The notes under the pieces are model-generated. The model was given only the letters and a program-made list of their open reading frames with translations. It did no database searches and was not told where the DNA came from. Positions 20,774 to 35,662 of a stretch of DNA of 38,342 bases are shown in pieces; position 1 is the stretch's first letter; every line of letters starts with the position of its first letter. This stretch comes from Chloroflexota bacterium (lineage in GTDB: Bacteria > Chloroflexota > Dehalococcoidia > UBA3495), in assembly GCA_022563275.1 (NCBI GenBank), contig JADFNR010000015.1, forward strand, positions 1 through 38,342. Reading direction: 5' to 3'. A program made the translations under genes and the position numbers.

Positions 20774-20863
20774 GGAGGGATGGCTGAGCGGACGAAAGCG
20801 ACGGTCTTGAAAACCGTTATAGGGGCAACTCTATCGTGGGTTCGAATCCCACTCCCTCCGCCA
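20774..20863 (+). tRNA. tRNA-Ser(TGA), island insertion site
   Basis: A 90-nt class II tRNA: acceptor GGAGGGA/TCCCTCC, D arm with GGCTGAGCGG, anticodon stem ACGGT/ACCGT with loop CTTGAAA (anticodon TGA), long variable arm ATAGGGG/CTCTAT, T arm GTGGG/CCCAC with TTCGAAT, discriminator G and encoded CCA. Only this copy is complete. Its last 58 bases recur at 23004 and 29804, marking it as the integration target of the island. Unlike those copies it is not followed by a hairpin, because the original downstream DNA has been displaced. Confidence 0.97.
20806..20863 (+). repeat. att repeat 1 (3' end of tRNA-Ser)
   Basis: The 58 bases from the anticodon loop (CTTGAAAACCGTT) to the CCA end are repeated exactly at 23004-23061 and with one mismatch at 29804-29861. 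Integration by tyrosine recombinases into the 3' half of tRNA genes produces such direct repeats and keeps one functional tRNA. Confidence 0.9.
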
Positions 20864-21028
20864 TTTCCCCCTGATCTCTCCTTTACGAAAGTGTCCCACT
20901 TTTGCTGGTTGCCAACAGTCACTATGCAACAGACTACCGATGAATAGTCGAATGTATAGACCCATCATTGACCGCTAAGCCCCTGCGAAAAGACAAGACA
21001 GCTCAGACACCTAACTTCGGAAACAACC

Positions 21029-22210
21029 ATGCCCGAAGAAAACCTTTACGAACTACTTCAGGTACAGCCTACCGCTGACGCGGAGATAATTCAGGCTGCG
21101 TTCCGTAGGTTAATACTGCGGTTTCACCCTGACCGAAGTCCAGCTCCTAACGCTCAGGAGATGACCCAACGGCTCAATCACGCCTATGAGATTCTAAGCG
21201 ACCCTCGAAAAAGGGCAGATTACGATAGGGAGCTTCTCCTTAACGCAGGAAGGGCGGTAAGGAGTACAGGTCAAGAAGCACGACGCCCATCTTCGCGTCC
21301 TCCACCTAAGGCGCCGCAATCCCCGCCGCCTGGCCCCAGGTCCTCCACCGAGGACATTAGAGGGTTCCCAAGATGGGTTTGGTTGGCCGGCGCTGGAATC
21401 GTTGTAGCGATAGTTGCCATCGTGGCACTTAATGCAGAGGGCACGAGCACTGGTAGGTCTTCTGGAGATGGCGTACCTTTTGCTGGACCGTTGCCTACAA
21501 GTACCCCTGTGCCGAATCTTGCCTCTTTACCCACACCTTCCCCGATGCCGACCCTTGTTCCGAGCCTGACGGTTAGTGCAACTCCTACGCCAAGCCCGAC
21601 GTCTACACCAATTGCGCACTACGACAACGGTGCAGCATTTTACGAAAGCAAACAATACTCCCAAGCTATTATCGAATTTACGAGCGCGATTCTCTTAAAC
21701 CCAAATTACTCGGACGCCTACAACTATCGCGGAGTCGCATATCAAGAGATTGGCCGACTCGAACAGGCCATCGAGGACTACGACAAGGCTATTCAGCTAA
21801 ATCCGGACGATAGCTTGGCATTCAATAATCGAGGAACTGCCTACCTTGAGCTTGGCCAAACACAAGAGGCTCTTCTAGACTATGACAAGGCCATACAACT
21901 AGACCCGGGATTTCCATTAGCCTCTGTGCCGAGAAGCCCAAACGCAACGCTAGAACCACCAATACTTTCGGTGGGCGCGAACGCGACACCAGGTCTAACG
22001 CCAGAACCGCCAGTTCCTTCCGAAAGCTCTAACCTCACCTTTTTCACCCTTGGTTCCACGAAAGACGAGGTTCTTGCCCTTCACGGGTCCCCCCCTTCCT
22101 TCAATGACAACAATTGGTATTACACCAACGGCAACGTTAGCTTCTCAGGCGGTCTAGTCACGACTTGGACCGGCGATATGAAGGCTCGCATAGTTCCTTC
22201 AGGGCCGTAG
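21029..22210 (+). CDS. Membrane-anchored J-domain TPR protein
   Basis: 393 residues. J-domain (3-68) with the DnaK-activating HPD at 33-35, a Pro-rich linker, one transmembrane helix (about 116-134, WVWLAGAGIVVAIVAIVAL), a long Pro/Thr/Ser spacer (about 150-190), about three TPR repeats (FTSAILLNPNYSDAYNYRGV and AIEDYDKAIQLNPDDSLAFN among them, 195-295), a second Pro-rich spacer, and a C-terminal 60-residue module with FFTLGSTKDEVLALHGSPP that resembles a SmpA/OmlA-like module seen in other Chloroflexota proteins. The J-domain would be cytoplasmic and the TPR part outside. No chaperone gene is adjacent. First gene inside the island; the start has only a weak ribosome binding site. Confidence 0.85.
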   Translation: MPEENLYELLQVQPTADAEIIQAAFRRLILRFHPDRSPAPNAQEMTQRLNHAYEILSDPRKRADYDRELLLNAGRAVRSTGQEARRPSSRPPPKAPQSPPPGPRSSTEDIRGFPRWVWLAGAGIVVAIVAIVALNAEGTSTGRSSGDGVPFAGPLPTSTPVPNLASLPTPSPMPTLVPSLTVSATPTPSPTSTPIAHYDNGAAFYESKQYSQAIIEFTSAILLNPNYSDAYNYRGVAYQEIGRLEQAIEDYDKAIQLNPDDSLAFNNRGTAYLELGQTQEALLDYDKAIQLDPGFPLASVPRSPNATLEPPILSVGANATPGLTPEPPVPSESSNLTFFTLGSTKDEVLALHGSPPSFNDNNWYYTNGNVSFSGGLVTTWTGDMKARIVPSGP

Positions 22211-22249
22211 TCATATTGTAGGGGCAAGAATTTCAGATAAGGGGGTGCA

Positions 22250-22844
22250 ATGTTGGGTTTTAAAGGCAGCAAGAGGTGGCGTCGCTATGTTAAGAGCTTC
22301 AGATGGCCATCATTGAACGCTGTGGACTTCTCCTGGTGACCAATTTGCCTACCAAAGCTCTGCTGATGGTTTATCTTCAGAACAAAAACGCCGTCTCGAG
22401 GATCTCCCAGGATGGGCTTGGGATGTTATTCATTATTCGTGGGAAGAAGGTTTTGCTGCATTGCAACTATTCATTGCGAGGGAAGGCCACGCAAGGCCCC
22501 CCCAGACACACCTGGAAGCCGGATACCGTCTAGGTTGGTGGGTCCAAAATCGGAGAAATAGAAGAGAAATTCAAACCACTGAACATGTAGCTCAACTGGA
22601 ATCTCTACCTGGCTGGACTTGGGATACCAGGCAAGTATGGTGGGACGAAGGGTTTGCTACCTTGCAACAATTCGTATCACGAGAAGGGCACGCCCAGTCT
22701 CCGCAAAAATGCATCGAGGATGGGTTCAAATTAGGGATTTGGGTAGCTAACGTGAAAAACAGAAAGGATACCCTCAGTCCTCAAAGGATAACGCTTTTGG
22801 AATCCCTCCCAGGGTGGAAGTGGCGAATCCCCACTCGTATATGA
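22250..22844 (+). pseudogene. Helicase-associated-domain protein in two frames
   Basis: An ATG at 22250 with AAGGGGG ahead begins a 29-residue basic frame (KRWRRYVKSFRWPSLN) that stops at a TGA at 22337. In the +1 frame, open from 22317 to 22844, two helicase-associated (HA, PF03457-like) repeats follow: LEDLPGWAWD..EGFAALQLFIAREGHARPP and LESLPGWTWD..EGFATLQQFVSREGHAQSP, each about 67 residues with a Trp-rich core, then a third partial LESLPGWKW. The +1 frame has no ATG before 22461. Either a frameshift broke the gene or ribosomes shift at the TGA, which is followed by C as in prfB. HA repeats probably bind nucleic acid; no helicase core is present. Confidence 0.6.
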
Positions 22845-22944
22845 AGCATTAGTACATCCATCCTTACCGACACCACTCTTGGCCCCTAAAAGTGCACGAA
22901 CTTAAGACAACCAGCCAAGGTCACGAGGACGCATCAGGGGATAT

Positions 22945-22958
22945 AGGCACGAAATTGG
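22945..22958 (+). repeat. AGGCACGAAATTGG motif before att repeat 2
   Basis: The 14-mer AGGCACGAAATTGG occurs here and again exactly at 23066-23079, on either side of att repeat 2. Related forms lie after att repeat 3 (29866-29879) and, on the minus strand, on both sides of the tRNA-like remnant at 26428 (26409-26422, 26499-26508). Candidate recombinase binding site. Confidence 0.5.
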
Positions 22959-23003
22959 AACGCTACAGCACTAGATAAACCGATTAGTACGCCTACCAAC
23001 AGA

Positions 23004-23061
23004 CTTGAAAACCGTTATAGGGGCAACTCTATCGTGGGTTCGAATCCCACTCCCTCCGCCA
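23004..23061 (+). repeat. att repeat 2 (tRNA-Ser 3' end)
   Basis: An exact 58-bp copy of 20806-20863 without the 5' half of a tRNA gene. It divides the island into a first segment of about 2.2 kb and a second of about 6.8 kb. Confidence 0.9.
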
Positions 23062-23077
23062 GATCAGGCACGAAATT

Positions 23078-23111
23078 GGCCCAGACCTCAATTAAGTGGT
23101 CTGGGCCTTTT
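23078..23111 (+). terminator. Hairpin terminator after att repeat 2
   Basis: A perfect stem GGCCCAGACC/GGTCTGGGCC with a 10-nt loop, followed by TTTT, starts 17 bases after the att copy. A tRNA-terminator-like hairpin in the same position follows att repeat 3. Confidence 0.8.
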
Positions 23112-23224
23112 GCTGCAATGTCCACGGATTGTCCACGAACTTTTCCTGGATGCCGTTCCTCAGGCACAGATTGCTGGATCGTCTGGCGCTATCGAATTCC
23201 GCTGCAGGGCCATCAAGGTGTACT

Positions 23225-23270
23225 CCCGGCAGGGCTTAAGAGATTTCGGTATCTGGAAAGTTAGCCGGCG
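23225..23270 (+). repeat. 5' cassette element, copy a
   Basis: Shares CCCGGCAGGGCTTAAGA with copy b (23794) and nearly with copy c (26636). In all three a CCGGC is followed 33-35 bases later by GCCGG, so they can form the same closing helix. In this copy AGAT and ATCT form an inner hairpin. No gene follows it on the plus strand; the ABM gene ends next to it on the minus strand. Confidence 0.6.
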
Positions 23271-23273
23271 ACG

Positions 23274-23567
23274 CTAGTAATCGGCGCTTATCTCGTAGTA
23301 CTCAGTGATGGGAGGGCCTTCTAACACTGCTCCGAACCTGGCCATGACATCATCCATGACGCTTGGGGTCGCCGCCGCTCTGGCGTCGGCCTCTGTCGCC
23401 CATATGGTCACCGCTAAGGCCTTGTTGGTGCTGAGGTCCGTCAGTACGCGCGCACTTTGAAATCCCTGCGTCCCCTGGTTGACGGACTTTTGAGTCTCGA
23501 TATAAATCTTATTAAATTCGTCCATTTTGCCCGGTTGAACCTGTCCCGTTGCTACCCTTGCCCACAT
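23274..23567 (-). CDS. ABM-domain (monooxygenase-like) protein
   Basis: 97 residues forming the dimeric alpha/beta barrel of the antibiotic biosynthesis monooxygenase (ABM) superfamily: MWARVATGQVQPGKMDEFNK, FQSARVLTDLSTNKALAVTIWATEADA, ending EYYEISADY. Members include quinol monooxygenases, heme-degrading enzymes and small proteins without known activity; the heme-ligand residues of IsdG-type enzymes are not obvious. The ATG at 23567 has GGAG eight bases before it. It is the only leftward gene in this part of the island. Confidence 0.8.
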   Translation of the reverse strand: MWARVATGQVQPGKMDEFNKIYIETQKSVNQGTQGFQSARVLTDLSTNKALAVTIWATEADARAAATPSVMDDVMARFGAVLEGPPITEYYEISADY

Positions 23568-23793
23568 AATGTATCTCCTGTACTAAACATGAATTCGCCA
23601 GCCTGCTGGCGAGCCACCGGAGTATATGCCAACTTACCAATGCAGGCAACAGACTTTTACCGATCTGCAAATACTTGTGGGACCAGTGATTCCGCAAGAT
23701 AGCATCATGGGCCAGGTGACACCAAGGTCCAGAGGTACAAGGATCGCCGGTCTTGTAGTGGCCGAAGGGAGCCAGGGAATGGGCACCAGTGTC

Positions 23794-23853
23794 GCCCCCC
23801 GGCAGGGCTTAAGACACCTGATTACATGGATAGTTGTCGCCGGAAATATTTTG
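23794..23853 (+). repeat. 5' cassette element, copy b
   Basis: Contains CCCCCCGGCAGGGCTTAAGA, then GTCGCCGGAAATATTTT. It matches copy c (26636-26697) over about 60 bp with identical spacing (35 bases) between CCGGC and GCCGG. It lies about 80 bp before the YdjM-like gene. The T-rich tail suggests a terminator-like or structured RNA. The rest of the 366-base gap (23568-23933) shows no gene. Confidence 0.7.
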
Positions 23854-23933
23854 GCAGAGATCCATCGCCCAACGCCTGGACTGACGTTTGCCTAGCCTTG
23901 CTACAAGTCGGAGGCACCTGTATTATTTTGTAG

Positions 23934-24476
23934 ATGGGACCAGTTGGACACACCGTTATCTCTACCGCAGTAGGGGCCTCCGTCTGGGGAGCCACAGGGT
24001 CGGAACTGGCGGGAGGCATCGCCGTAGGGGTGGGTGTGTTCGTGGATGTCGACCACCTCGTTGACCTCTATCAGTCTTGGATTAGACGCGATCCAACTAA
24101 AATCATCGTACCTTTCCACGGCTGGGAATACTCGATTGCTGGCCTTCTGGTACTGGTTTTGGTGTTCTACCACCCTATTCTACTTGCGGTGGTCTTGGGT
24201 CATTTGAGCCATGTAGCGACGGACCATTTCCACAACCGCCTGACTCTCTTAGGATATTTCGTCCTCTATCGGGCTTGGGTCCGCTTTGACGCCCAGAAGA
24301 TCGCTCCGCAAAGAGACTCGGAATATTTTCATCACAACCTCCCTTCATATTTCCCGTTTAGGCGTCTATGGGAGCCGTGGTATAAACGGAAGATTGAACC
24401 TTGGTTTTCTGACAAGTCTCCTGCGGCCTCCGAGGAAGAAGCTGCCAACCAAAATAACCGAACGTCCCTGAGGTAA
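23934..24476 (+). CDS. YdjM-like membrane-bound metal-dependent hydrolase family protein
   Basis: 180 residues. MGPVGHTVISTAVGASVW at the N-terminus, the metal-type cluster FVDVDHLVDLY, and GHLSHVATDHFHN match the YdjM/DUF457-type family of small membrane proteins with conserved His/Asp residues. Hydrophobic segments lie at about 7-40 and 68-90. The C-terminal tail (KSPAASEEEAANQNN) is polar. The enzymatic activity of the family is predicted, not shown. The gene is framed by a 5' repeat (23794) and a 3' hairpin repeat that begins right after the stop, the same arrangement as the gene at 26789. Confidence 0.8.
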   Translation: MGPVGHTVISTAVGASVWGATGSELAGGIAVGVGVFVDVDHLVDLYQSWIRRDPTKIIVPFHGWEYSIAGLLVLVLVFYHPILLAVVLGHLSHVATDHFHNRLTLLGYFVLYRAWVRFDAQKIAPQRDSEYFHHNLPSYFPFRRLWEPWYKRKIEPWFSDKSPAASEEEAANQNNRTSLR

Positions 24477-24538
24477 GCCCGTTGGCATGCGGCTACCCAC
24501 TGTTGGAGTAGGGTGGGGGCGGACGGGAGATTTGTTGG
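24477..24538 (+). repeat. 3' cassette hairpin element, copy 1
   Basis: Begins at the base after the stop codon: GCCCGTTGGCATGCGGCTAC, later GGACGGGAGATTTGTTGG. CCCGT pairs with ACGGG and GGCTACCC with GGGTGG inside, forming a two-helix structure. Copy 2 at 27791-27849 keeps both helices although the loop differs. Confidence 0.7.
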
Positions 24539-24542
24539 TAGG

Positions 24543-24875
24543 CTACTTTTGAACCGGTGTTCCGAGTGAGTCGTCCACGATTGCAGGCAACGTTATCGTG
24601 AACGTAGACCCTTTACCTGCCTCACTCTCCACTAATACCGTGCCGCCCATCATCTCGCAGAAGTGGCGGGTGATGGCCAAGCCCAGGCCCGTACCACCAT
24701 AATCTCGCCTGGTTGAGGCTTCTGCCTGGGCGAATGCTTCAAAGAGCCGTCCCATCTGTTCTTCGGTCATGCCGATACCTGTGTCACCTACGGAGAAGTT
24801 GATCCACTCTCTGCCGTCTTCGGTATCTCGGCTAACGGTCAATGAGATGGTCCCCTGATCAGTGAACTTGCTGGC
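24543..24875 (-). pseudogene. C-terminal fragment of a multi-GAF histidine kinase
   Basis: 110 residues, from [16 protein letters not shown] to [10 protein letters not shown], align almost without gaps with residues 988-1097 of the kinase at 6573 and include the G1 (GDTGIGM), F (EAFAQAEAS) and G2 (GGTGLGLAI) boxes. DNA similarity is also high. The N box, HisKA domain and sensor part are missing: upstream the frame continues into unrelated sequence ([15 protein letters not shown]). It cannot make a working kinase. The matching N-terminal fragment of a paralogue lies at 28921 on the same strand. Confidence 0.85.
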
Positions 24876-25045
24876 GTATTGGGCCTTCCACAGTTGCAGT
24901 GGCGGGAATTGGATGACCAACCCAGGGCATGAAGGAATTCCTGCTCACATGAAATTCAAACCATACCAGCGCTCCCAATGGTGCATATTGGATTGATACT
25001 ACTTCCGCCGATCGGATCGGCAAAGAAATCGCAAAGGCGCCAAAG

Positions 25046-26281
25046 ATGGAACAGTTGGCGGACCGGCATGGACGGGGTTATCGTGACCCACAGAACGCCT
25101 CATCCCGAATTAAGCGATTCGCTGCATCCGTTCGTTTGATTGCCGGTCTCCTTTTTGTCGGCTTTGTTGTTTTGGGCGCCGCCCCACCCCAGGCACAGAC
25201 CCCTAGCTTAACGGTGATCCCTTCCAGCGGACCCAGAGGGACCGTGATCATCATCGTCGGTGAAAACTTTACCGGCAACGGCTCGGTCGCCAACGGGATA
25301 GCAATAGATGGCGTTTCGACGGGCAACCCACTTTTCTCTCTGACCACAGACGGTAATTTTGTCTACAACGGTATTGTGGTGCTGGCCGCCGGAACCGGTC
25401 CCAAGGCTGTGACGGTAACCGACTCTGGGGGTCTGACCGGGTCGGCCACATTCACGGTGACCCGGCCCACGATCACGTTAAGTCCTGCTACGGTGACCTT
25501 GGGCGAAACGGTGACTATCGCCGGAGCGGGTTGGGTGCCCCTGTCTTCGGTCTTCATCACGTTGGATGCTGATTTCCGGGAGGTAGCGGGCAGTGTCGCC
25601 ATTGTCGATGCCACCGGCGGCTTTGCAACGACGATGGAAATTCCCAGAGCGGTTGGCATCGGAAAAAAGGTAATATCGTTCGAAGCTGCCGACACCAGTA
25701 ATCTTGGGAACACCGCTGAAGCGCGGGAGCTTACGATACCCGCACCCAAGATAACGATCTCGGCGACCGAGGCCGTGGTGGGTTCCACCGTGACTCTCGA
25801 TGCCTCAGCCTTCCTGCCTAACTCGGCTTTAACCGATCTCTCCATAGGAGGGTTGGATGTCGGAGAAGGCGTGCCAACGACCGACTCGGTCGGTAGCTTA
25901 ACCGTGTCTTTCACGGTGCCCGGCCTTAACGGCGGCCAAATAGTGTCAGTAAGCATTGGCGGGACCACGATCACCATGGCCCTGATAGTGGACAATTCCA
26001 CCGTGCCTCCGGTATCTGATCCGGCGCCAGAACCGGTTGCCAGCCAAACGACTGAAGTGTTCGCCGATCTCATATCCAACGGCGGCAACCTGATTCGAAT
26101 ATTCCGCTTCGACAACGCTACTCAGGCGTGGGACTTCTTCGATCCGAGGCCGGAGTTCGCCGGGGCAAACAGCTTAACCACAACCGTGCCCGGCGATATC
26201 GTCTGGGTGAAGGTGGTTACCCGACAGGACTTCCAAGGCGAGACCTTGTTCCCGGGTTGGAACCTGATCTCTCTTAAGTAA
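25046..26281 (+). CDS. Secreted Ig-like/TIG-repeat protein
   Basis: 411 residues. After a basic 27-residue head there is a signal-anchor or signal peptide (about 28-51, VRLIAGLLFVGFVVLGAAPP followed by QAQT). The mature part contains about three beta-sandwich repeats beginning ITLSPATVTLGETVTIAGAG, ITISATEAVVGSTVTLDASA and the more divergent LTVIPSSGPRGTVIIIVGEN, like IPT/TIG or Ig folds. A C-terminal module (LISNGGNLIRIFRFDNATQA to GWNLISLK) is of a type found at the end of secreted Chloroflexota proteins. The head may have been fused on: the frame is open with coding-like sequence (DTTSADRIGKEIAKAPK) before the ATG. A surface or cell-envelope role is likely. Confidence 0.75.
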   Translation: MEQLADRHGRGYRDPQNASSRIKRFAASVRLIAGLLFVGFVVLGAAPPQAQTPSLTVIPSSGPRGTVIIIVGENFTGNGSVANGIAIDGVSTGNPLFSLTTDGNFVYNGIVVLAAGTGPKAVTVTDSGGLTGSATFTVTRPTITLSPATVTLGETVTIAGAGWVPLSSVFITLDADFREVAGSVAIVDATGGFATTMEIPRAVGIGKKVISFEAADTSNLGNTAEARELTIPAPKITISATEAVVGSTVTLDASAFLPNSALTDLSIGGLDVGEGVPTTDSVGSLTVSFTVPGLNGGQIVSVSIGGTTITMALIVDNSTVPPVSDPAPEPVASQTTEVFADLISNGGNLIRIFRFDNATQAWDFFDPRPEFAGANSLTTTVPGDIVWVKVVTRQDFQGETLFPGWNLISLK

Positions 26282-26384
26282 GTGGAAGACGACTCAGGGT
26301 TTTATACTTACACCGGTCATCTGTTGGCTCCAAAGACCTGAGCGGCCCAGGCCGTTGGCAAACTGGCGTTAAGTCCCGAAATCG

Positions 26385-26415
26385 AAATGCTCCCGGATTT
26401 CACTGGGAGCATTTT
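26385..26415. terminator. Bidirectional terminator-like hairpin
   Basis: AAATGCTCCC and GGGAGCATTT form a perfect 10-bp stem with a 10-nt loop, flanked by TTTT on the plus strand and a short T run on the minus strand. It lies about 100 bp after the secreted protein gene and, read on the minus strand, directly behind the tRNA-like remnant. Confidence 0.75.
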
Positions 26416-26427
26416 CGTGCCTACAAA

Positions 26428-26477
26428 TGGAGGAGCGAGAGGATTCGAACCCCCGGCCACTAGTTTTGGAGTTCTGC
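26428..26477 (-). pseudogene. 3' half of a tRNA, Trp-like (possible att remnant)
   Basis: Read on the minus strand: anticodon loop CTCCAAA (anticodon CCA), 3' anticodon stem ACTAG, five variable bases, T arm GGGGG-TTCGAAT-CCTCT, and acceptor CGCTCCT followed by CCA without a clear discriminator base. The 5' half is missing (AGAA where CTAGT is expected). The lengths fit a tRNA-Trp 3' half. It lies inside the island next to paired direct repeats, so it may be the end of another integrated element. Confidence 0.5.
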
Positions 26478-26489
26478 GGGGAAAGGTAC

Positions 26490-26610
26490 TTAACGGCCTT
26501 TCGTGCCTAGGGATGTACTTGGACGTTTAGATGTGAAACGGTTATTCGTGTCTAACGGCCTTTGATGTCCTCGCTTACCCTTGGATGGATGTCGGCAAAA
26601 TGTCGGCAAG
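26490..26610. repeat. Short direct repeats next to the tRNA-like remnant
   Basis: TAACGGCCTTT occurs at 26491-26501 and 26553-26563. ATGTCGGCAAAATGTCGGCA near 26590 is a tandem pair with an 11-bp period, like the TGTCCACG repeats near 23118 and 29682. These resemble recombinase arm-type sites. The 507-base gap 26282-26788 otherwise holds only the hairpin, the tRNA remnant and cassette element c. Confidence 0.45.
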
Positions 26611-26635
26611 ATCGATTGGCTGTCACAGACTACTC

Positions 26636-26697
26636 CACCCCCCGGCAGGGCTTAGGAAACCTCGCAAGCTGAATAGCTATCGCCGGAAATATTTTTG
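26636..26697 (+). repeat. 5' cassette element, copy c
   Basis: CCCCCCGGCAGGGCTTAGGA, then ATCGCCGGAAATATTTTT; matches copy b at 23794. An inner hairpin AGCT-GAAT-AGCT is specific to this copy. It lies about 90 bp before the polytopic membrane protein gene. Confidence 0.7.
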
Positions 26698-26788
26698 GGG
26701 GAATTCAGTCGCGTCGTTTACTAATCGTTAGGGAAGATCCGCGTTACGTTGGATTGCCCTTCGAATCACCTTGTGAGAGATTAGACCG

Positions 26789-27784
26789 GTGTTAAATAGG
26801 CTAGATATAAAAACATCGTTGGCAGGCCTGGTGGCCACAGGTAATCACAAGTTACCGGAGCGGCGGATTCCATTTCGAGAGAAGCCGATACCGCGCTACG
26901 TACTTCCTTACCGAGGTCTATTTGGTCTGGCGTTGATCGGCCTTTTTTGGCCTGCCTCGTGGCTCAAGATGGGATTTATTGGTCATTACTCCTTCTTCCC
27001 TCTTTGGCTCGGCTATATCCTGACCGTAGAAGGCCTCGTTCTGCGCCGCACTGGGACTTCACTGATCCAACGAAACTTTAAGACATTCGTCGGCATGTTT
27101 ATCATCGCCAGCCCGTTCTGGTGGTTCTTTGAAGGAGTCAACCACTTCACCGAGAGCTGGCATTACCTAGGCAACGAAGGCCGGTCCACCGCGTATTTCA
27201 TCCTGCTTTCATCCTGGGCTTTCTCAATTGTCGTTCCGGCCATCCTAGAGACCGCCGAATTATTGGGATCCACCAAGTTCATACAGCGGCTGAGTACTGG
27301 GCCGGTTATAAAACCCTCAAACACACTCATTGTTGGTGAGGTATCGGTAGGCGTCGCGTGTCTGATGGCCCTGGCAATCTGGCCCCATTACGCCTTTCCG
27401 GTGACCTGGCTGGGGGTGTTCTTTATCTTAGACCCGATCAATTACGTTCAAGGCCGGCCAAGCGTTCTGGCCACAGTGAGACACGGCGACTGGAGGCTGC
27501 CATGTTCGTTGGCCTTCGGGGCGCTAGTTTGTGGCTGGTTCTGGGAGATGTGGAACTTCTACGCCATCCCTAAATGGGAATACACCATTGGCTTCTTCGA
27601 CTTCGTCCACATATTCGAGATGCCGCTTTTGGGCTACGGCGGTTACTTGCCCTTCGGCCTGGAGACATTCGCGGCTTACCACTTTGCCGCCGGCCTTGTT
27701 GGCTGGTCCTCTGGCGCCAGCATTCCCATCAACAGTGATGAGCAGGCAAACTTTGATATAGATAGGGCCGGTCTCGCACCTTAA
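26789..27784 (+). CDS. Polytopic membrane protein of unknown function
   Basis: 331 residues with about eight or nine hydrophobic helices from residue 42 to 310 (for example GLFGLALIGLFWPASWL, FVGMFIIASPFWWFFEG, AYFILLSSWAFSIVVPAIL, SLAFGALVCGWFWEMWNFY). Aromatic and charged residues in helix ends (WWFFEGVNHF, FWEMWNFYAIPKWEY) are typical of a conserved but uncharacterised family. The start is GTG 26789. A polar head and tail (INSDEQANFDIDRAG) frame the membrane part. It is the second gene in the island with the 5' and 3' cassette repeats. Transport or enzymatic function cannot be decided. Confidence 0.75.
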   Translation: MLNRLDIKTSLAGLVATGNHKLPERRIPFREKPIPRYVLPYRGLFGLALIGLFWPASWLKMGFIGHYSFFPLWLGYILTVEGLVLRRTGTSLIQRNFKTFVGMFIIASPFWWFFEGVNHFTESWHYLGNEGRSTAYFILLSSWAFSIVVPAILETAELLGSTKFIQRLSTGPVIKPSNTLIVGEVSVGVACLMALAIWPHYAFPVTWLGVFFILDPINYVQGRPSVLATVRHGDWRLPCSLAFGALVCGWFWEMWNFYAIPKWEYTIGFFDFVHIFEMPLLGYGGYLPFGLETFAAYHFAAGLVGWSSGASIPINSDEQANFDIDRAGLAP

Positions 27785-27790
27785 GCCACA

Positions 27791-27849
27791 GCCCGTTGGC
27801 ATGTGGCTACCCCCTGAAGTATTGTGGGGTCGGACGGGAGATTTGTTGG
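27791..27849 (+). repeat. 3' cassette hairpin element, copy 2
   Basis: GCCCGTTGGCATGTGGCTAC, later GGACGGGAGATTTGTTGG, beginning six bases after the stop codon. The outer helix CCCGT/ACGGG and inner CCCC/GGGG are preserved compared with copy 1 at 24477 while the loop sequence has changed. Confidence 0.7.
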
Positions 27850-28055
27850 CTGAAATCGTGCGGTGGTCGCGTTCACCAGTGGCGAGTAAAAAAGCAATGG
27901 AAGCCCAGACATCAAAACGGAATTGTCCGAAGTTCCAGACTCGTAATCCTCAGGAAAGGATTTGTTTGATCAATAAACCTATCGGCGGCCCACGTAGCCA
28001 CTGCCCGTGTCGAAAGCGGGAGCGGAGACTGAGCGGTGTCATCTTCGCGAGCTGC

Positions 28056-28718
28056 TCAGGAGATACACAGGTTCACCATGGCCTGGACCACCTGAGGCGA
28101 CCGGTCCAGGTCATCTTGCACTGCCAGTCCTAGCTTCTCGCAGAGCGAGGTGGCGAGGGCATCCACCGTCTCGAGCGGCAGCCTAAGAGTCTGGGCTATA
28201 CCGGCCGCATTATAGCCTTCAAGCATATATCTCAGGACGCGTTCCTCTGTTTCGGTCAGAGGCCTGTCCCGTGTGGCGGGCAGTCGATTGTATATGCCGA
28301 TGAGGTTCTGGGCTATTGTCCCATGCAATACGGCGCCGCCTTCGGCAACAACCTCCACCACTCTGATGAACTCGGCAATATCGTCCAGGGAGTTTTTCAA
28401 GATGTAAGCCTTTCGTGAAGCGCCGTTATGCATAATGGCCCGTACAAACGCCAGATCGTCGTAGGCGGATATGAGAACGATGGCGGTTTGGGAATTTCGT
28501 TCCACTATGCGATTGGCTACCGCCAAGCCATCCAACTTCGGCATCCTCACGTCGAGAACGACCACATCAGGCGCCAGTTCAATGGATTTTTCCAAAGCTT
28601 CCTGGCCATCCGATGCAATGGCCACCACTTCAATATCGTCCTTGGTCCGTAGGATATTCCGGTAGGCGTTACGCATCGCCTTGCTGTCGTCAGCAACCAG
28701 TACCCGTAGGAGACTCAT
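28056..28718 (-). CDS. NarL/FixJ-type response regulator
   Basis: 220 residues. Receiver domain (1-125) with Asp10/Asp11, phospho-acceptor Asp56 (VVVLDVRMPKLDG), Ser84 and Lys108 (YILKNS), then a LuxR-type helix-turn-helix (about 150-205, LTETEERVLRYMLEGYNAAG and LRLPLETVDALATSLCEKLG). AGGAGG lies six bases before the ATG. A transcription factor switched by phosphorylation. The kinase-derived fragment 54 bp upstream on the same strand suggests it once had a kinase partner in front; a functional partner would have to act in trans. The last helix of the HTH is less basic than usual, so DNA contact residues may be atypical. Confidence 0.88.
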   Translation of the reverse strand: MSLLRVLVADDSKAMRNAYRNILRTKDDIEVVAIASDGQEALEKSIELAPDVVVLDVRMPKLDGLAVANRIVERNSQTAIVLISAYDDLAFVRAIMHNGASRKAYILKNSLDDIAEFIRVVEVVAEGGAVLHGTIAQNLIGIYNRLPATRDRPLTETEERVLRYMLEGYNAAGIAQTLRLPLETVDALATSLCEKLGLAVQDDLDRSPQVVQAMVNLCIS

Positions 28719-28771
28719 TCCGACCTCCTATGTTCCTCCGGCAGTTACGGTGGTAAAGTCTTGGTCGGCCA

Positions 28772-28921
28772 TCAAAGCCGTGCAATGAACACGCTATGTA
28801 GTGTGAGCTTGCTTGAGACCTCCTGAAGGGCCACCGAGCGTTCTCGTTCTCGCCCGACGAGTTCTCGCTCCCGCTGTAGGTCTTCCAGTAGCTGCTTCTT
28901 GGTTTTTCGCTGGTCGTTCAT
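28772..28921 (-). pseudogene. N-terminal fragment of a multi-GAF histidine kinase
   Basis: From ATG 28921 the 49-residue frame begins MNDQRKTKKQLLEDLQ, matching the start of the kinase at 6573 ([16 protein letters not shown]), then jumps to a linker with ERSVALQEVSSKLTL, like the coiled coil before a GAF domain, and stops. The PAS domain is missing and everything after the linker is lost. The 45 bases before the ATG are nearly identical to those before the intact kinase gene, so the promoter and leader are preserved. Confidence 0.8.
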
Positions 28922-29325
28922 GCGGTATCTGCCTAGAATGTTGCCGGTATTATGACACGATTCGGTAAGGCGGTGCCCATACCCACTGTCACACTGAAAA
29001 CATGCCACCAATATCCTGAGGAAGTCCAACAGAGAGCCGTAAGGGAACCACGCCATTGTGTGCAGAAAGTTAGCAGGCTCGGAGCACAAGGGTAGGGCGA
29101 GGGGGTAGGGCTTACGTTCTGGCGCGATCCCTATATATGGATGGTCCGACGGCATTTTTTAAACAAAAGGAGTTTGTCGCTTGGCACAGGGCTGCAATCC
29201 CTGATGTCTTCCTAGGGGATGGAAGTTTCATGCTGACTCGTTCTTGTTCCAAAAGCGGCGTTGCAAGCGGTCCTACTCAGTTGCAGGGATCGCAGCCGTG
29301 TGTCAGCAGGCACGGAGTTAGCGGC

Positions 29326-29667
29326 CAGCAGATCGAGAATCAGTTGGACTACGGCGATCTCTGGACCAACACTGGGTACGTGTTTACTCAGCCGGATGGT
29401 ATACCGGTGGTTCCAGACCGGGTCACCCAGGATTTCGCGCGGTTGGTGCGAGAAGCTGGATTACCTCATCTGACCCTTCACGGACTCCGACATGCCCACG
29501 CAACGTTGATGCTCACGTCTGGCGTACACCTGAAGATTGTTAGTGAGCGATTGGGCCACAGCAATATCGCGATCACAGCCGATACTTATTCCCACGTCCT
29601 GCCTGGGATGCAGGAGGCTGCTGCGGAAGCTGTAGAACTGCTACTCCGTCGGTCAGACTCAGTTTAG
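29326..29667 (+). pseudogene. Tyrosine recombinase (integrase), C-terminal part
   Basis: Recognisable sequence starts near 29326 (IENQLDYGDLWTNTGYVFTQ) and contains HGLRHAHATLMLTSGVHLKI (the His-x-x-Arg pair), RLGHSNIAITADTYSHVLPG with the later His and the nucleophilic Tyr, ending at 29667. The N-terminal DNA-binding domain and the first catalytic Arg are missing; the frame upstream (from 29137) is unrelated. So the enzyme is broken and the island cannot excise by itself. It sits 136 bp before att repeat 3, as expected of an integrase next to its attachment site, and repeats TGTCCACG follow its stop. Confidence 0.85.
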
Positions 29668-29679
29668 CTTCAGGAAAAT

Positions 29680-29765
29680 GTCCACGAAATGTCCACGGAG
29701 TCCACGTGGTCAGAGTTGACCAGATGGGTGGATTAAGGGATTCTAGGCGTAGATTATCAAGAGGA
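29680..29765 (+). repeat. Arm-type direct repeats and a promoter-like palindrome
   Basis: ATGTCCACGAAATGTCCACG followed by GAGTCCACG (about 29681-29705) gives three TGTCCACG-like units. Next is the palindrome TGGTCAGAGTTGACCA (29708-29723). TTGACCAGAT, GGATT and GGGATTCTAGG then match the sequence before msrB at 35624. Together these lie between the recombinase fragment and att repeat 3 and may be binding sites of the integration machinery. Confidence 0.45.
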
Positions 29766-29803
29766 CTGGACTAGAAAAACGCATCGATATGCGTGATGTA
29801 CAA

Positions 29804-29861
29804 CTTGAAAACCGTTATAGGGGCGACTCTATCGTGGGTTCGAATCCCACTCCCTCCGCCA
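29804..29861 (+). repeat. att repeat 3 (tRNA-Ser 3' end), right end of the island
   Basis: 58 bases identical to 20806-20863 except one A-to-G change in the variable arm (GGGGCGACTCT). No 5' half is present. It is the rightmost junction, about 9 kb from the intact tRNA gene. Confidence 0.9.
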
Positions 29862-29877
29862 GTTCAGGCATGAAATC

Positions 29878-29914
29878 GGCCCCGGCCACATCACTGAGGC
29901 CGGGGCCGTTTGTT
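29878..29914 (+). terminator. Hairpin terminator after att repeat 3
   Basis: A perfect 10-bp stem GGCCCCGGCC/GGCCGGGGCC, loop of 10, followed by GTTTGTT. It is at the same distance from the CCA end as the hairpin after repeat 2. It is probably the original terminator of tRNA-Ser, pushed away by the insertions. Confidence 0.8.
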
Positions 29915-30004
29915 CGGTTGTCTTCGGAATAGCCAGGAACAATTGCTCAGGCTGTCGTCCCAGACCCCGAATAGTTCCATTTTTGCTCGGGCCGCCGGGA
30001 CACC

Positions 30005-30382
30005 CTAGTTTCCGTTTGTTAGATTCAGGGCCTGATCGAACACAAAGTCCAATTCTTTCTGTTCCCAAGGCTTGGCTAGGCGGTACTTCACTCCCAACTC
30101 CACTGCCCTCATCGTTACGTCGGGGAGACTGACAGCGGTAACCAGCACCACGGGGATCCCGGTGGTTTCCGGGCTTTCCTGCAGCTCTGAAATGAAAAGG
30201 AGACCGTCCATCACTGGCATCACGATGTCCACGAAGATAATGTCGGGTTTCTGTTCGCTGACACGCTGCAAAGCAACCGCGCCATTGTTGGCTTTCCGGA
30301 CTTGGCAGCCTTTGTCCCGCAATTGTTCGACCAATAAATTCCTGATGTCTACCTCGTCCTCAACAACCAGTGCGTTGACCAT
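30005..30382 (-). CDS. Single-domain response regulator (CheY-like)
   Basis: 125 residues, a receiver domain only: Glu9/Asp11 (VVEDEVD), phospho-acceptor Asp52 (IIFVDIVMPVMDG), Thr82 (VVLVTAV) and Lys104 (RLAKPWE). AGGAGG lies eight bases before the ATG. Without an output domain it must act by protein contact or as a phosphate relay. It could serve the soluble kinases of this window that lack receivers (6573, 32658), but no gene order supports a specific pair. It lies just outside the island. Confidence 0.9.
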   Translation of the reverse strand: MVNALVVEDEVDIRNLLVEQLRDKGCQVRKANNGAVALQRVSEQKPDIIFVDIVMPVMDGLLFISELQESPETTGIPVVLVTAVSLPDVTMRAVELGVKYRLAKPWEQKELDFVFDQALNLTNGN

Positions 30383-30985
30383 CCACTGACCTCCTCAGCA
30401 TCCGTAACCTTGAACTCAGGGTAACAATTTCCATGCTAAGTGCAATCCGCACCCAACTCTATCGGCGGGCCGGAGGGCACAATTCGATCAACCGATTCGC
30501 GGCCGGTTCGGCCATTATCCGACTCTATCTGAGGCGGGTAGCGGTGATTGGTTTTTCACGTACCAGCACCCTTTGAAGATAGTTTTTGTCGCCTGATAAA
30601 ATTCGCCAAACTTTGAAGCCGGTGTCGTTGAGTCAGGTCGATTCTACGTTGATCCAATTATCCGGCAGTTTGATGATCCAGTTCTATGATTCGGCGTGAA
30701 TCAAATGACTTAGATTCCGAATACAGGGTTCGGGTTAAAGAGGCCGCTAAGGGCGTGTGGTTGCTAGTGCTAGAGCAGTTCTGAAGGGAATGATGCCACG
30801 TTCTCTGCGATGAAGGTGGTCGATTCCGGGAGGTCCACCCCAGATGTGCCCCATACCCACTCCGATATAATCGGATGGGTCCAGGGTTAGCCTGGTTCAC
30901 AAGCGATTAAAGCTTGTCCAACGTAGAAACCGGGGCGGGAAAGCGTGGCGCCAAATATTTCGGTGAAGATTTTGGGAAATTCCAC
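30383..30985. other. Long intergenic region, one palindrome with a -10-like core
   Basis: 603 bases without a convincing gene. TCCGAT-ATA-ATCGGA (30861-30875) is a perfect 6-bp inverted repeat whose centre reads TATAAT, about 110 bp before the lipoprotein start. It may be a promoter with an overlapping operator, but no good -35 element is seen. A leftward frame at 30658-30900 has random-looking composition. Confidence 0.4.
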
Positions 30986-31678
30986 ATGAGCATCAAACTT
31001 GCGCTGTTTGTCTTTGTGATTGCTGGTCTACTTGCTTGCGGATCATCGAGCGAACTTGCTCCGCTTCCCATAATCCATACTGTGGTCGTAACGGCCACTC
31101 CGAAACCAACCGTAGTTCAGAGAGCAACTCAGGCTCCAACTCCGATAATCCATACGGTCGTTGTCACCGCTACGCCCGTCCCCACCGCGCCAACAACCCC
31201 CACACCAACCCCTCCACCGGCCCAGGTCCCAACTCCTACAGCCACGATGGCGCCTACCCCTACGCCGCTGCCTACGCCAACGCCCACCCCGGAACCCACC
31301 AGCACGCCGATTCCGGACGATCATGGCGACGATCGAACTACTTCAACCTCTGCCGGCTTAACCTTGGACAACTCGCCACTATTTATTCGCGGGAATTTCG
31401 AGAAACCTGGTGATACCGATACGTTCTCTTTTCAGGGCTTGAATGGAGAAACATTCGTCTTCAGCGCCAACTTTCTATTGAGCGGCGCGATCGTGACTGC
31501 GGTCGGTCATCCAAAATTGATCCTGTATAGTGCGTCGCCCTCCTCGCCGTTTGCAATCGACGACGGGGCGGGGAACATGTTATACGTGACCGGTGGGGGC
31601 ACGATGTACCTTGATGTGTCGAGCTATAACGCGAAATATACCGGCAATTACCAGATAGTGGTGGACCGCATCAAATAA
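30986..31678 (+). CDS. Lipoprotein with Pro/Thr-rich stalk and pre-peptidase-like domain
   Basis: 230 residues from ATG 30986. MSIKLALFVFVIAGLLACGS is a lipoprotein signal with the lipobox L-L-A-C. The stalk (about 25-130) contains IIHTVVVTATP twice and then runs of P-T-P-T-P. The C-terminal 100 residues (from DNSPLFIRGNFEKPGDTDTF to GNYQIVVDRIK) resemble the bacterial pre-peptidase C-terminal (PPC) beta sandwich, a domain usually attached to secreted enzymes and here present alone. An earlier ATG (30914) is in frame but would bury the signal peptide. Surface anchored; binding target unknown. Confidence 0.82.
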   Translation: MSIKLALFVFVIAGLLACGSSSELAPLPIIHTVVVTATPKPTVVQRATQAPTPIIHTVVVTATPVPTAPTTPTPTPPPAQVPTPTATMAPTPTPLPTPTPTPEPTSTPIPDDHGDDRTTSTSAGLTLDNSPLFIRGNFEKPGDTDTFSFQGLNGETFVFSANFLLSGAIVTAVGHPKLILYSASPSSPFAIDDGAGNMLYVTGGGTMYLDVSSYNAKYTGNYQIVVDRIK

Positions 31679-31753
31679 TCGAATGGCGCTTTAGAAGCGT
31701 GGAAGGGAGGCGAGCTGCTTCACTTCGAGGGATCACAGAGGCGGTTGAAACCC

Positions 31754-31960
31754 CTACTGCAAGTCTGAGATATCGTCAGAATGACTTCCTCTTAAAGCGC
31801 AGTGGCCACACACCCGGCAAACCGGATGTAGATCGTTGTATTGAGGATGCCTTTGTTTGCAAAACCCGGCACCGTCATCCCGGCACCTGGGACACCCTTC
31901 GCAATAGCGTCCACCGGCCCTCTGGGATCGTTGAGTTTCTTTATCTGTAACTGTGACCAT
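31754..31960 (-). CDS. Small Cys-rich zinc-ribbon-like protein
   Basis: 68 residues from ATG 31960. Seven Cys (20, 23, 26, 34, 48, 51, 54) and two His occur as RYCEGCPRCRDDGAGFC and HPVCRVCGHCALR, two C-x2-C-type knuckles suited to one or two zinc ions. The frame is open further upstream (32038), but the shorter start has AGTAGG a suitable distance ahead. The remaining sequence is polar and probably flexible. I do not recognise a named family; it may be a chance frame, though the regular Cys spacing argues against that. Confidence 0.45.
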   Translation of the reverse strand: MVTVTDKETQRSQRAGGRYCEGCPRCRDDGAGFCKQRHPQYNDLHPVCRVCGHCALRGSHSDDISDLQ

Positions 31961-32061
31961 AGATTGACCTACTGGAAGAACTAAACCTTTATCTAGCTTG
32001 TTTGACTGATCGGCGATGCGGTTACAGGAGAATATCACAAGCTATATCATCGGTTGGGGTT

Positions 32062-32328
32062 TCAGTGAATGTCCCCGCGGACTATTTTTGTGGAAATCAG
32101 CAAAAGCTTCGCTTTTCTGTCCAACGACTTTATCTCGGCCTCACGTTTTGAGGCGGGTCCCCTGCCCTGGTGATCTTCCTGGTAAACGAGCTGAAGCGGA
32201 CCACGGCCTTTGGTGTACTTCGCGCCTTGCCCCGCTACATGCTCCGCCATGCGGCGCTCTAGATCATTGGTGATGCCCGTATACAGGGTTCCGTCGGCGC
32301 ACCGCAGAACATAAACGGTCCAGTTCAA
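32062..32328 (-). CDS. GIY-YIG domain protein (YhbQ/UPF0213-like)
   Basis: 88 residues from TTG 32328: NWTVYVLRCADGTLYTGITN (the GIY-YIG motif appears as VYVLRC and YTGIT), Arg in LERRMAEH, GQGAKYTKGRGP and the conserved Glu in ASKREAEIKSL. Stand-alone small GIY-YIG proteins are predicted DNA nucleases or repair factors. The ORF is open upstream but the extension has no family similarity, so TTG, with GGGG just ahead, is the probable start. Codes leftward between two rightward genes. Confidence 0.85.
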   Translation of the reverse strand: MNWTVYVLRCADGTLYTGITNDLERRMAEHVAGQGAKYTKGRGPLQLVYQEDHQGRGPASKREAEIKSLDRKAKLLLISTKIVRGDIH

Positions 32329-32657
32329 ACGCCCCTGCCATATCCAAATAGAGTTTGCACCACTGGCCTGATGATGAGGCCCCTGCTGTGCCCAGAAGTT
32401 CACAGGACGAGCCCATGTTGTTGACCATATGGGCCAGCCTGGTTGCCGCACCCTGGCTGCAGCCATTATGCCATATGATCCCGCCCCTATTCCTCTCGGA
32501 ATTCTACCGCTTGGCTGGCTGCTTGGTCTCTTTCCAACTCGGGTGGAACCCACGGGCCGTTTTACAAGTATAATTAACGCCGTTAACGCATGGATGGGAC
32601 TTCCAATCGACCAGAGCGGGCCGCCCGGCGGGGTTGGCGCCACCGGGGTTAATGTGT

Positions 32658-33902
32658 ATGGCAGACAATGTGGAAGGCGCGACGAAAGAGGCCTTGCTGG
32701 ACCTGCAGATACAGACCTTCTATCAGGTAAACCGGTTCATCAGTTCGATCCACGATATGGACCAACTGCTGATCCTGATCATGCAGGAATCTGAATCGGC
32801 GGTTAGCGCTGAGGCCAGTTGCATCGCCATCCGCGATCCAGAAGATGGCAGGCTTCACATCGAATTCGCCATCGGTGAGGCCAGCGAGGACGTGCGGCAT
32901 ATAACTCTGGCCATGGGTCAGGGTGTGCTGGGCACCGTGGCCGCCACCGGCAAAACGCTACGGGTCGACGATGTGACATTGGACTCTCGTTTCGACTCGT
33001 CCGTGGACCAAATATCCGGCTTCGTGACCCGGTCTCTTTTGGCAACTCCCATTCAATGGCGCGGCGAGCTGTTGGGCGTCTTGGAGGTGGTCAATAAACG
33101 GGACGGAGCGCACTTCAACGAAAACGACGAACGACTTTTGGAGATCGTGGCCAACCAGGCGGCGATCGCGGTGGAGAACAGCCGGCTGGTGGAAGGGATG
33201 GTGCGGTCGGAGCGGCTTTCGGCCATCGGAAACATGGCGGCGTCTCTGATGAACGATTTTAAAAGCCCGCTAACCGATATCCGCGGGTTCGCTCAACTCC
33301 TGGCAAACCCGGAGATAGATACCGAAAGGCGAAAATGGCTCTCCGACATGATTCTTGACGACATCGACCGCTACGTGGGTATGGCCCAAGAGTTGCTGGA
33401 CTACTCCAAAGGAGTAATCAGCCTTAACTTCAAGGTCGTGCAGTTGGGTGCCTGGCTGGACCGGCTAACGGACCGCATGGGGGATGATTTGGGCGAGGCC
33501 AACATCCGTTTTTCCAAGAATCTCAACTTCGTCCGCGACGTGATCATGGACGAGGCCCGGGTCCGGCGGGCCGTACTGAACCTGGTGGCAAATGCGGTTA
33601 ATGCGATGCCGGAAGGTGGTGAACTGACCATTGCCACAGATGGAACCGAAGGCCGGTGGCGATTGTCGGTGGCGGATACCGGGCCGGGTATTCCTCTGGA
33701 TCTCCGCTCCCGGATCTTCGAGCCATTCGTCCGCCTGGGCAGGGAATATGAAACCGGGCTGGGCTTGGCCATCGCCAAGGAAGTTGTCGAGGGTCACGGT
33801 GGCAGCTTGAGCTTCGAAACGCGGACCTCCGGTGAGGCCGATGGACGGGAATCAGGAACTATTTTTCAGATCGAGATTCCGGTATCGCCAGCCGGGTCAT
33901 AA
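32658..33902 (+). CDS. GAF-domain histidine-kinase-like protein lacking the phospho-acceptor His
   Basis: 414 residues from ATG 32658 (ATG 32652 also possible). A GAF domain (about 20-170, ending NEDDERLLEIVANQAAIAVEN-like) is followed by a dimerisation helix, NMAASLMNDFKSPLTDIRGF. Family members have His where Asn199 stands here (usual pattern H-D-[LF]-K-[NS]-P-L-T). The ATP-binding domain is intact: N box (NLVANAVNAMP), G1 (DTGPGIP), F and G2 (GLGLAIAK). It may be a regulator that binds ATP without autophosphorylating, or it may use a partner kinase. No signal peptide. It lies downstream of the convergent GIY-YIG gene. Confidence 0.87.
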   Translation: MADNVEGATKEALLDLQIQTFYQVNRFISSIHDMDQLLILIMQESESAVSAEASCIAIRDPEDGRLHIEFAIGEASEDVRHITLAMGQGVLGTVAATGKTLRVDDVTLDSRFDSSVDQISGFVTRSLLATPIQWRGELLGVLEVVNKRDGAHFNENDERLLEIVANQAAIAVENSRLVEGMVRSERLSAIGNMAASLMNDFKSPLTDIRGFAQLLANPEIDTERRKWLSDMILDDIDRYVGMAQELLDYSKGVISLNFKVVQLGAWLDRLTDRMGDDLGEANIRFSKNLNFVRDVIMDEARVRRAVLNLVANAVNAMPEGGELTIATDGTEGRWRLSVADTGPGIPLDLRSRIFEPFVRLGREYETGLGLAIAKEVVEGHGGSLSFETRTSGEADGRESGTIFQIEIPVSPAGS

Positions 33903-33961
33903 ACAGGTGGCTGAGGCCCGTTGACCCAGCGGGCGCCCATCTCACGCGGTGTCACTTGGAA

Positions 33962-35005: not shown

Positions 35006-35104
35006 GAATGTAGGTCAATCGCCAGATTGAGATGCGTTAAGAGGCCTTAAGATGCACCGCCGGCCAATTCCGCCGGCTATATCGTATCCGGCGAAGTCCG
35101 ATCC

Positions 35105-35149
35105 GCAAAAAAATACACCGCCGCCACCGGGGGGATGGTGGCGGCGGCG
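35105..35149 (-). terminator. Strong terminator of the gene at 35205-35486
   Basis: On the minus strand GCCGCCGCCACC pairs with GGTGGCGGCGG around an ATCCCCCC loop and is followed by TGTATTTTTTT. It lies about 55 bases after the stop codon at 35205. Confidence 0.85.
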
Positions 35150-35204
35150 TTGGCGGTGATGAGAATAGTCCGGTTAAACCGCGCCCTTTTCAGAACGCCG
35201 CGAG

Positions 35205-35486
35205 TCAGCGGGTTCGGCGAGTCCTATTTTGCCGCAGGGACGCCGGCGCCCCGAGATTGGAGGGGCCGTTCGGATTCCCACGGGAGAGCAGGAAAAGGGC
35301 CGTTGACCACCAGACCGCCATGACACCGCCACCGGCGGTCCGAAGGACAAATATGGGGCTGACAAGCAGAAGCCGCAGACACCAGCGAAGGAAAACGACG
35401 GGGGCGAGGACCACCGTCAGGGCCCCGGCGAAAATGGATGATAAAAGATACCGCGGGGGCGATTTGATCCGCATGGTGAATTGCAT
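35205..35486 (-). CDS. Small membrane protein
   Basis: 93 residues from ATG 35486; the frame is open to 35564. Two hydrophobic stretches (about 15-45, SSIFAGALTVVLAPVVFLRW and LRLLLVSPIFVL) and a third around residues 53-66 (GGGVMAVWWSTALFLL) precede a basic, Asn/Arg-rich tail (LRQNRTRRTR). A strong terminator follows, which supports a real transcript. No recognised family. Confidence 0.5.
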   Translation of the reverse strand: MQFTMRIKSPPRYLLSSIFAGALTVVLAPVVFLRWCLRLLLVSPIFVLRTAGGGVMAVWWSTALFLLSRGNPNGPSNLGAPASLRQNRTRRTR

Positions 35487-35623
35487 GGCCCCAGTATTTA
35501 GCCGCCGTGGGCCTGCATCCAGTACCATCGCGGCCATCTCAATGGCCGTAATGGGCCACACCATAGGCCCTTAAGGGCCGGACCCGGCTCCGCCTTTGGG
35601 CAAAGGCCGGCGAGGGTGCACTT

Positions 35624-35662
35624 GACCAGATCAACCGGATGAGGGATTCTAGGATTAGAATC
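35624..35662 (+). promoter_or_regulatory. Palindrome upstream of msrB
   Basis: GATTCTA (35645-35651), four bases, TAGAATC (35656-35662) is a perfect 7-bp inverted repeat, 63 bp before msrB. It is preceded by TTGACCAGAT (35624). The same run of TTGACCAGAT, GGATNAGGGATTCTAGG and TAGA occurs at 29716-29758 near att repeat 3. It may be an operator or a mobile-element trace. Confidence 0.45.

Follow-up and report, generated by a model that had tools for sequence, protein, structure and literature searches.

A likely integration hotspot at a tRNA-Ser(TGA) gene of a SAR202-type bacterium, with successive layers attributable to tyrosine-recombinase elements

Introduction

Genomic islands can accumulate in layers at the 3′ end of a stable RNA gene. 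As described in the parts of the reports drawn on here, the Dehalococcoides islands at ssrA stand in tandem, separated by direct repeats of the ssrA 3′ end; crossover falls in the T loop and is carried out by a serine (CcrB-like) recombinase, many islands lack an integration module and are proposed to move with their neighbours, and the oldest, outer region is thought to be fixed (PMC3146451). In the additive flexible islands of ‘Ca. Methylopumilus’, 20-bp repeats of a tRNA-Lys end delimit variable gene sets (PMC10872708), and tycheposons, which include a recombinase, carry cargo and span 4-200 kb (PMC10872708, PMC11389934). Here we examine a stretch of 38,342 nucleotides from a marine Chloroflexota bacterium (assembly GCA_022563275.1, contig JADFNR010000015.1, positions 1 to 38,342; hereafter the window), in which the 3′ end of a tRNA-Ser(TGA) gene recurs twice. 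We consider it likely that this gene is an integration hotspot in a SAR202-type bacterium, occupied in successive layers by tyrosine-recombinase elements.

SAR202 bacteria are abundant in the deep ocean. Our literature searches listed little on their gene exchange. Genomic islands have been predicted in a SAR202 isolate; judged by the titles and abstract openings listed, none of the papers dealt with tRNA-targeted SAR202 islands, the motif described below not having been searched as text.

Results

Three copies of the tRNA-Ser 3′ end

ARAGORN and Rfam identify a single intact tRNA-Ser(TGA) in the window (Table 1). Its last 58 nt, from the first anticodon-loop base to CCA, recur once without change and once with a single difference, and all three 58-bp attachment (att) copies claimed in an initial annotation of this DNA were thus recovered. 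The array has an intact tRNA at one end and a repeat of the tRNA 3′ end at the other, as expected of tRNA-targeting elements.

Each extra core is followed after 4 nt by a related site, AGGCACGAAATTGG behind copy 2 and AGGCATGAAATCGG behind copy 3 with AGGCAYGAAATYGG in common, and then by a 10-bp stem (23078-23107 and 29878-29907). Relative to shuffled sequences, folding gave z = -4.96 and -3.83 for the extra-copy flanks and -0.79 for the flank of the intact tRNA. The initial annotation had noted this motif and hairpin behind each extra copy; both copies do carry them, but they are not peculiar to these copies, as AGGCAYGAAATYGG with a hairpin recurs in relatives. Further AGGC sites, absent from that annotation, begin at 22945 and 29745, both 59 bp ahead of a core. 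In the whole window AGGCAYGAAAT (at most one mismatch) has 8 matches against 1.02 expected, a number reached by 0 of 100 shuffles, and the excess of AGGCATGAAA may partly reflect start codons with a ribosome site. Elsewhere, at 6322-6390, two AGGYATGAAA sites enclose what by eye is an inverted partner, with no ARAGORN tRNA adjoining.

The tRNA-Ser to msrB interval in relatives

Relatives were found by a scan with the upstream citrate synthase (named by eye), giving 75 loci; the best 10 of the 75 show 89-95% protein identity and come from metagenome-assembled genomes labelled Chloroflexi, SAR202 cluster or Dehalococcoidia. The scan with the 58-mer took in 72 of the 75 loci, and the comparison of neighbouring genes listed 29 of the 75. 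In six relatives (L001, L002, L005, L006, L008, L010) the tRNA core continues directly into a flank of the copy 2/3 type, in matches of 72-235 nt at 82-92% identity, 58 nt of which are core and 14-177 nt lie beyond it. The interval 20864-23061, which we call module 1, is therefore missing there. Its proteins had no match near the tRNA among the loci listed (29 of 75), the only matches to its DnaJ-TPR protein being a TPR protein in L015.

To the right of the array, msrB, tag and a further open reading frame (ORF; names by eye) have matches in L003, L004, L005 and L006, and msrB has them in L001 and L007 as well. The distance from tRNA-Ser to msrB is smallest in L003 (73 nt), followed by L004 (386 nt), L006 (1.5 kb), L005 (3.9 kb), L007 (6.1 kb) and L001 (7.4 kb), and is largest in the window (14.9 kb); the L008 locus does not extend to msrB. 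So wide a spread across seven sequences identifies the interval as a hotspot, with L003 nearly empty. The search for empty sites that the initial annotation had proposed thus yielded six relatives without module 1 and, for the array as a whole, the near-empty site of L003; the lack of any empty site, which that annotation would have taken as a refutation, was not seen.

The 58-mer (at most 12 differences) was found in 15 of the 72 loci, with a second copy in L001 alone, at 12 differences; several of the loci are short, and further copies may be missed. Among the loci listed, integrase genes adjoin tRNA-Ser in L002, L006, L015 and L051. The tRNA-Ser of L051 (8650-8760 of the reversed locus) stops just past the anticodon loop and is followed by the integrase gene, seemingly an insertion without restoration of the tRNA. 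Behind msrB in L001 (19411-19503 of the reversed locus) stands a degenerate tRNA-Ser-like copy, 78.5% alike over 93 nt and without an ARAGORN call, followed by AGACGCGAAA and a hairpin.

Anatomy of the layers

Module 2 carries TGTCCACG arm repeats at both of its ends (23117-23142 and 29679-29712). In relatives, such repeats also stand behind a hairpin or terminator at tRNA-Leu fragments and at tRNA-Ser(CGA), and L008 matches window positions 23004-23238 at 82% identity. Just ahead of copy 3, as the initial annotation had it, a truncated tyrosine recombinase ends 136 bp before the core: the Phage_integrase match of the ORF is limited to the C-terminal part. Residues 277-394 of the L051 integrase (395 aa) match 29311-29664, and residues 1-276 match nowhere in the window. 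The intervals of 2.2 and 6.8 kb given in that annotation hold; module 2 as a single unit does not, because an inverted tRNA-Trp-like 3′ fragment flanked by AGGCACGAAA lies inside it and makes it composite, and its integrase is a remnant.

In module 1 no recombinase was found, in line with the annotation. At its right end, AAAAGTGCACGAACTT resembles repeats near a tRNA-Ser fragment and integrase remnants in genome G001 (L090, L206), an observation that draws partly on a survey of 5 of 17 genomes, and a CTAGATAAACC block there is shared with a tRNA-Sec fragment of G008 (L167). The arm-like repeat at this end is of another element's type, so that module 1 may plausibly have been mobilised in trans by the integrase of another element. 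Its helicase-associated (HA) ORF may be incomplete, as 13 of 31 other relatives span 200-223 aa and the window ORF has 127 aa.

Beyond copy 3, a third layer probably extends from 29862 to about 35.7 kb, the oldest and vertically kept one. The copy 3 flank aligns with the P′ ends, its arm repeats being decayed; at the other side, 35622-35669, adjoining msrB, is 73% alike to the P arm 29716-29763. Directly ahead of msrB in L001, 77 nt with an arm repeat (18890-18966) are 79% identical to window 29687-29763, and ahead of these 77 nt there is, by eye, an integrase-tail-like sequence. Within the putative layer, 30016-32975 matches L005, L007 or L008 at 68-79%, similar to the 75-76% seen for the region upstream of the tRNA. 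We infer this layer rather than observe it because its right core is missing. The two successive integrations at tRNA-Ser proposed in the initial annotation are supported by the sites without module 1, the variable tRNA-msrB interval and the att anatomy at both ends of module 2; as a full count, two is probably too low.

Table 1. Features of the tRNA-Ser(TGA) locus in the window
Feature	Coordinates	Strand	Basis
Intact tRNA-Ser(TGA), target gene	20774..20863	+	ARAGORN and Rfam; core 20806-20863, anticodon loop to CCA
Module 1, 2.2 kb, includes att copy 2	20864..23061	+	absent in L001, L002, L005, L006, L008, L010
DnaJ-TPR protein	21029..22210	+	Pfam DnaJ, TPR
HA-domain ORF, perhaps incomplete at start	22461..22844	+	Pfam HA
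Arm-like repeat AAAAGTGCACGAACTT of module 1	22888..22903	+	AAGTGCACGA twice beside tRNA-Ser fragment of G001 (L090, L206)
P-arm site AGGCACGAAATTGG	22945..22958	+	-59 from core copy 2
att core copy 2	23004..23061	+	0 differences from tRNA 3′ end
Module 2, 6.8 kb, includes att copy 3; composite	23062..29861	+	repeats, arms, tRNA-Trp fragment
P′ site AGGCACGAAATTGG and 10-bp hairpin	23066..23107	+	sequence and folding
Arm repeats TGTCCACGGATTGTCCACGAA, module 2 left end	23117..23142	+	repeat comparison
Inverted tRNA-Trp-like 3′ fragment (26428-26471) with AGGCACGAAA either side (26412-26422; 26498-26508)	26412..26508	-	85% to tRNA-Trp end of L067
Tyrosine-recombinase ORF, C-terminal catalytic part only	29137..29667	+	Phage_integrase (Pfam), PHROGs, L051 comparison
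Arm repeats TGTCCACG, module 2 right end	29679..29712	+	repeat comparison
P-arm site AGGCGTAGA	29745..29753	+	-59 from core copy 3
att core copy 3	29804..29861	+	1 difference from tRNA 3′ end
Probable third, oldest layer: P′-like end, decayed arm repeats (29914-29942), shared genes, P-arm-like relic (35622-35669)	29862..35669	.	inferred
msrB-like gene (named by eye), hotspot right border	35725..36096	+	matches near tRNA-Ser in L001, L003-L007

For ten proteins of the window, PADLOC returned nothing, and PHROGs gave matches for just two of them, the integrase and the DnaJ-TPR protein, the latter to families of unknown function. In viral contigs the integrase had no pattern match; the HA protein had 3 pattern matches, of which 0 were confirmed. 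Within module 2, the genes at 23934-24476 and 26789-27784 each lie between the same pair of non-coding repeats (23798-24538; 26638-27849), with CCCGGCAGGGCTTA.. before and GCCCGTTGGCATG..GGACGGGAGATTTGTT behind; in L008 these two repeats enclose no such gene and are separated by about 100 bp. Two histidine kinase fragments (by eye; 24543-24920 and 28772-29155), a C-terminal and an N-terminal piece, resemble the kinase at 6573-9866.

The AGGC motif in genomes of relatives

Across six genomes we counted 121 occurrences of AGGCAYGAAA and 31 of the reversed pattern. A search of 17 genomes for a tRNA 3′ end with AGGCAYGAAA behind it gave 20 cases, spread over 9 of the genomes, and 0 in controls. 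Both full tRNAs and 3′ fragments are represented; a hairpin and direct repeats of various kinds often lie behind them, and sometimes an integrase gene does. At 8-11 nt behind Rfam tRNAs the motif stands in 3 of 40 and 3 of 47.

The position ahead of the core separates fragments from full genes. Among tRNA-Ser and tRNA-Lys sequences collected without using the motif, in 11 of the 17 genomes, AGGC[AG][CT][AG] stands at one of three offsets from the anticodon loop (-59, -60 or -79) in 11 of 19 fragments and 0 of 28 full genes; anywhere within 200 nt upstream, it is present in 12 of 19 and 3 of 28. Fisher tests give p = 4e-6 for the fixed offsets and 3e-4 for the 200 nt, values that are overstated because the offsets were picked after seeing the data and the P arms are related. 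The 19 include the two window fragments, both at -59; the Lys P arms are a few related sequences, one of the 11 sites (L327) sits inside an inverted tRNA-Sec fragment, and 4 of 51 rows were dropped as no core start was recognised (L316, L326, L328, L341). We take the upstream AGGC site to be part of the attachment site, on the strength of its position in these sequences, and it would perhaps be bound by a common factor.

Some arrangements seen in the same genomes are recorded here in their own right. L182 (G008:C82) and L327 show a tRNA-Sec 3′ fragment placed back to back with an inverted tRNA-Ser 3′ fragment, with about 40 bp between the two. L203 (G001:C72:58768-60539), which also draws partly on the five-genome survey, has a tRNA-Lys 3′ fragment at a distance of 1.7 kb from a full tRNA-Lys; an integrase remnant lies in between, and the arrangement is another small module. 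GARGCTAAA stands at a similar distance behind other tRNAs (L225, L231, L255, L271) and is perhaps a second such motif.

Alternative explanations

The repeats might have arisen without any site-specific recombinase, if homologous recombination or a segmental duplication had copied the tRNA tail and the neighbouring interval in tandem. Such an origin would fit the 79% likeness of 23003-23147 and 29803-29947 beyond the core, and both modules hold relatives of the tRNA-msrB interval. However, the repeats start at the anticodon loop, the layers differ in gene content, module 2 has arm repeats at its two ends, and in four relatives integrase genes adjoin tRNA-Ser; we regard a duplication as improbable. 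An assembly artefact, with a metagenome contig misjoined at tRNA repeats, is more improbable still: the contig of one relative (L077) does end just past such a repeat, but both outer flanks of the array are syntenic with relatives, the arms match across module 2, and two other protein clusters, with longest contigs of 10,133 and 13,966 bases, contain the truncated integrase at 99%. A more specific doubt concerns the motif, which together with its hairpin could be an RNA-level tRNA trailer and terminator carried by the elements rather than an attachment-site DNA motif. In favour of this, it is placed 3-9 nt past tRNA ends with hairpins after it, and a downstream motif follows 18 of 30 full tRNA-Ser/Lys genes (Lys 6 of 8, Ser 12 of 22) and 10 of 18 fragments; being about equally common behind both, it does not discriminate between full genes and fragments. 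Yet the broader AGGC[AG][CT][AG]A occurs within 28 nt behind just 9 of 87 tRNAs of G005 and G008 (at least 5 of the 87 flanks being mostly unknown or missing and scored as motif-less), on which ground a general tRNA trailer was rejected; the near-empty L003 site has no motif, and AGGC sites without hairpins stand at fixed distances ahead of fragments. We consider the trailer explanation rather unlikely.

Several observations weigh against integration in successive layers, or limit it. That downstream motif, as just noted, is about as frequent behind full genes as behind fragments, and its link to an integrase within 2.5 kb behind full tRNAs is not significant (3 of 12 versus 6 of 75, p = 0.105); looser variants (L218, L266, L274) would strengthen the link, but post hoc. 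A consensus terminator scan of 20700-30100 listed neither att hairpin, and its 9 sites are no excess over the shuffle mean of 9.4. The L002 match reaches just 14 nt past the core. Module 1 has at its left end (20864 on) neither an AGGC site nor a strong hairpin; this is therefore not a standard element end, and it speaks against a simple complete element. The putative third layer has no right core, and what we read as its P-arm relic next to msrB might instead be an ordinary promoter that is shared through an accident of ancestry. Finally, neither module holds its own complete integrase, module 2 having the C-terminal remnant and module 1 none that was found; the layers are therefore better described as tRNA-targeting elements reduced to remnants or dependent modules than as autonomous elements.

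Discussion

Integration in successive layers, as we read the locus, would proceed as follows. Tyrosine-recombinase elements would cross over at the anticodon loop, each bringing in its own version of the tRNA 3′ half together with arm repeats, a hairpin terminator and an AGGCRYRA site; because the element supplies its own 3′ half, the tRNA would stay whole and the old 3′ half would be displaced outward. From the tRNA outward the order would run from newest to oldest. Module 1, without a recombinase, would be the newest and may have been moved by a foreign integrase; module 2, with its integrase remnant and its TGTCCACG arms at both ends, would stand in the middle; and the decayed outermost layer, putatively of the same arm type as module 2, would abut msrB.

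We offer, as a tentative conjecture, that SAR202 harbours a lineage-wide family of tRNA-hopping elements in whose attachment sites the accessory site AGGCRYRA recurs, and that one common, perhaps host-encoded, factor acts for many integrases. If so, AGGCRYRA should be found roughly 60 or 79 bp ahead of the crossover and some 5 bp past the tRNA end, irrespective of which tRNA is targeted and of the integrase's own arm repeats. With a portable tRNA tail and terminator, correct transcription of the target tRNA would be preserved, and modules lacking an integrase, module 1 among them, would move in trans. If the elements share such a grammar of attachment sites, small islands in SAR202, even recombinase-less ones, could be found by sequence, and the AGGC site is a testable candidate for an accessory recombination site that they have in common.

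Williams (2002) reportedly described integrases with crossover in the anticodon loop, where the core here likewise begins. Compared with tycheposons, as far as the parts of those accounts used here go, the locus has in common the tRNA border and an aquatic host, while of a tyrosine recombinase only a remnant is present; unlike them, its layers are small, one with that remnant and one with none. As in the ‘Ca. Methylopumilus’ islands, recurring tRNA-end repeats bound variable gene sets, which is the character of additive islands; that system belongs to another phylum, has a 20-bp repeat, and the part of its description considered says nothing of a shared accessory motif. The Dehalococcoides ssrA islands, again from a partial view of their description, are alike in bacterial class, tandem layers, repeats of an RNA-gene 3′ end, recombinase-less modules and an old outer layer. 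Here, however, the repeated stretch starts with the anticodon loop, the recombinase remnant is of the tyrosine type, and because the target is tRNA-Ser the array is not a member of the ssrA islands. By analogy, it would work like the ssrA and additive tRNA islands and would be a tyrosine-recombinase counterpart in SAR202.

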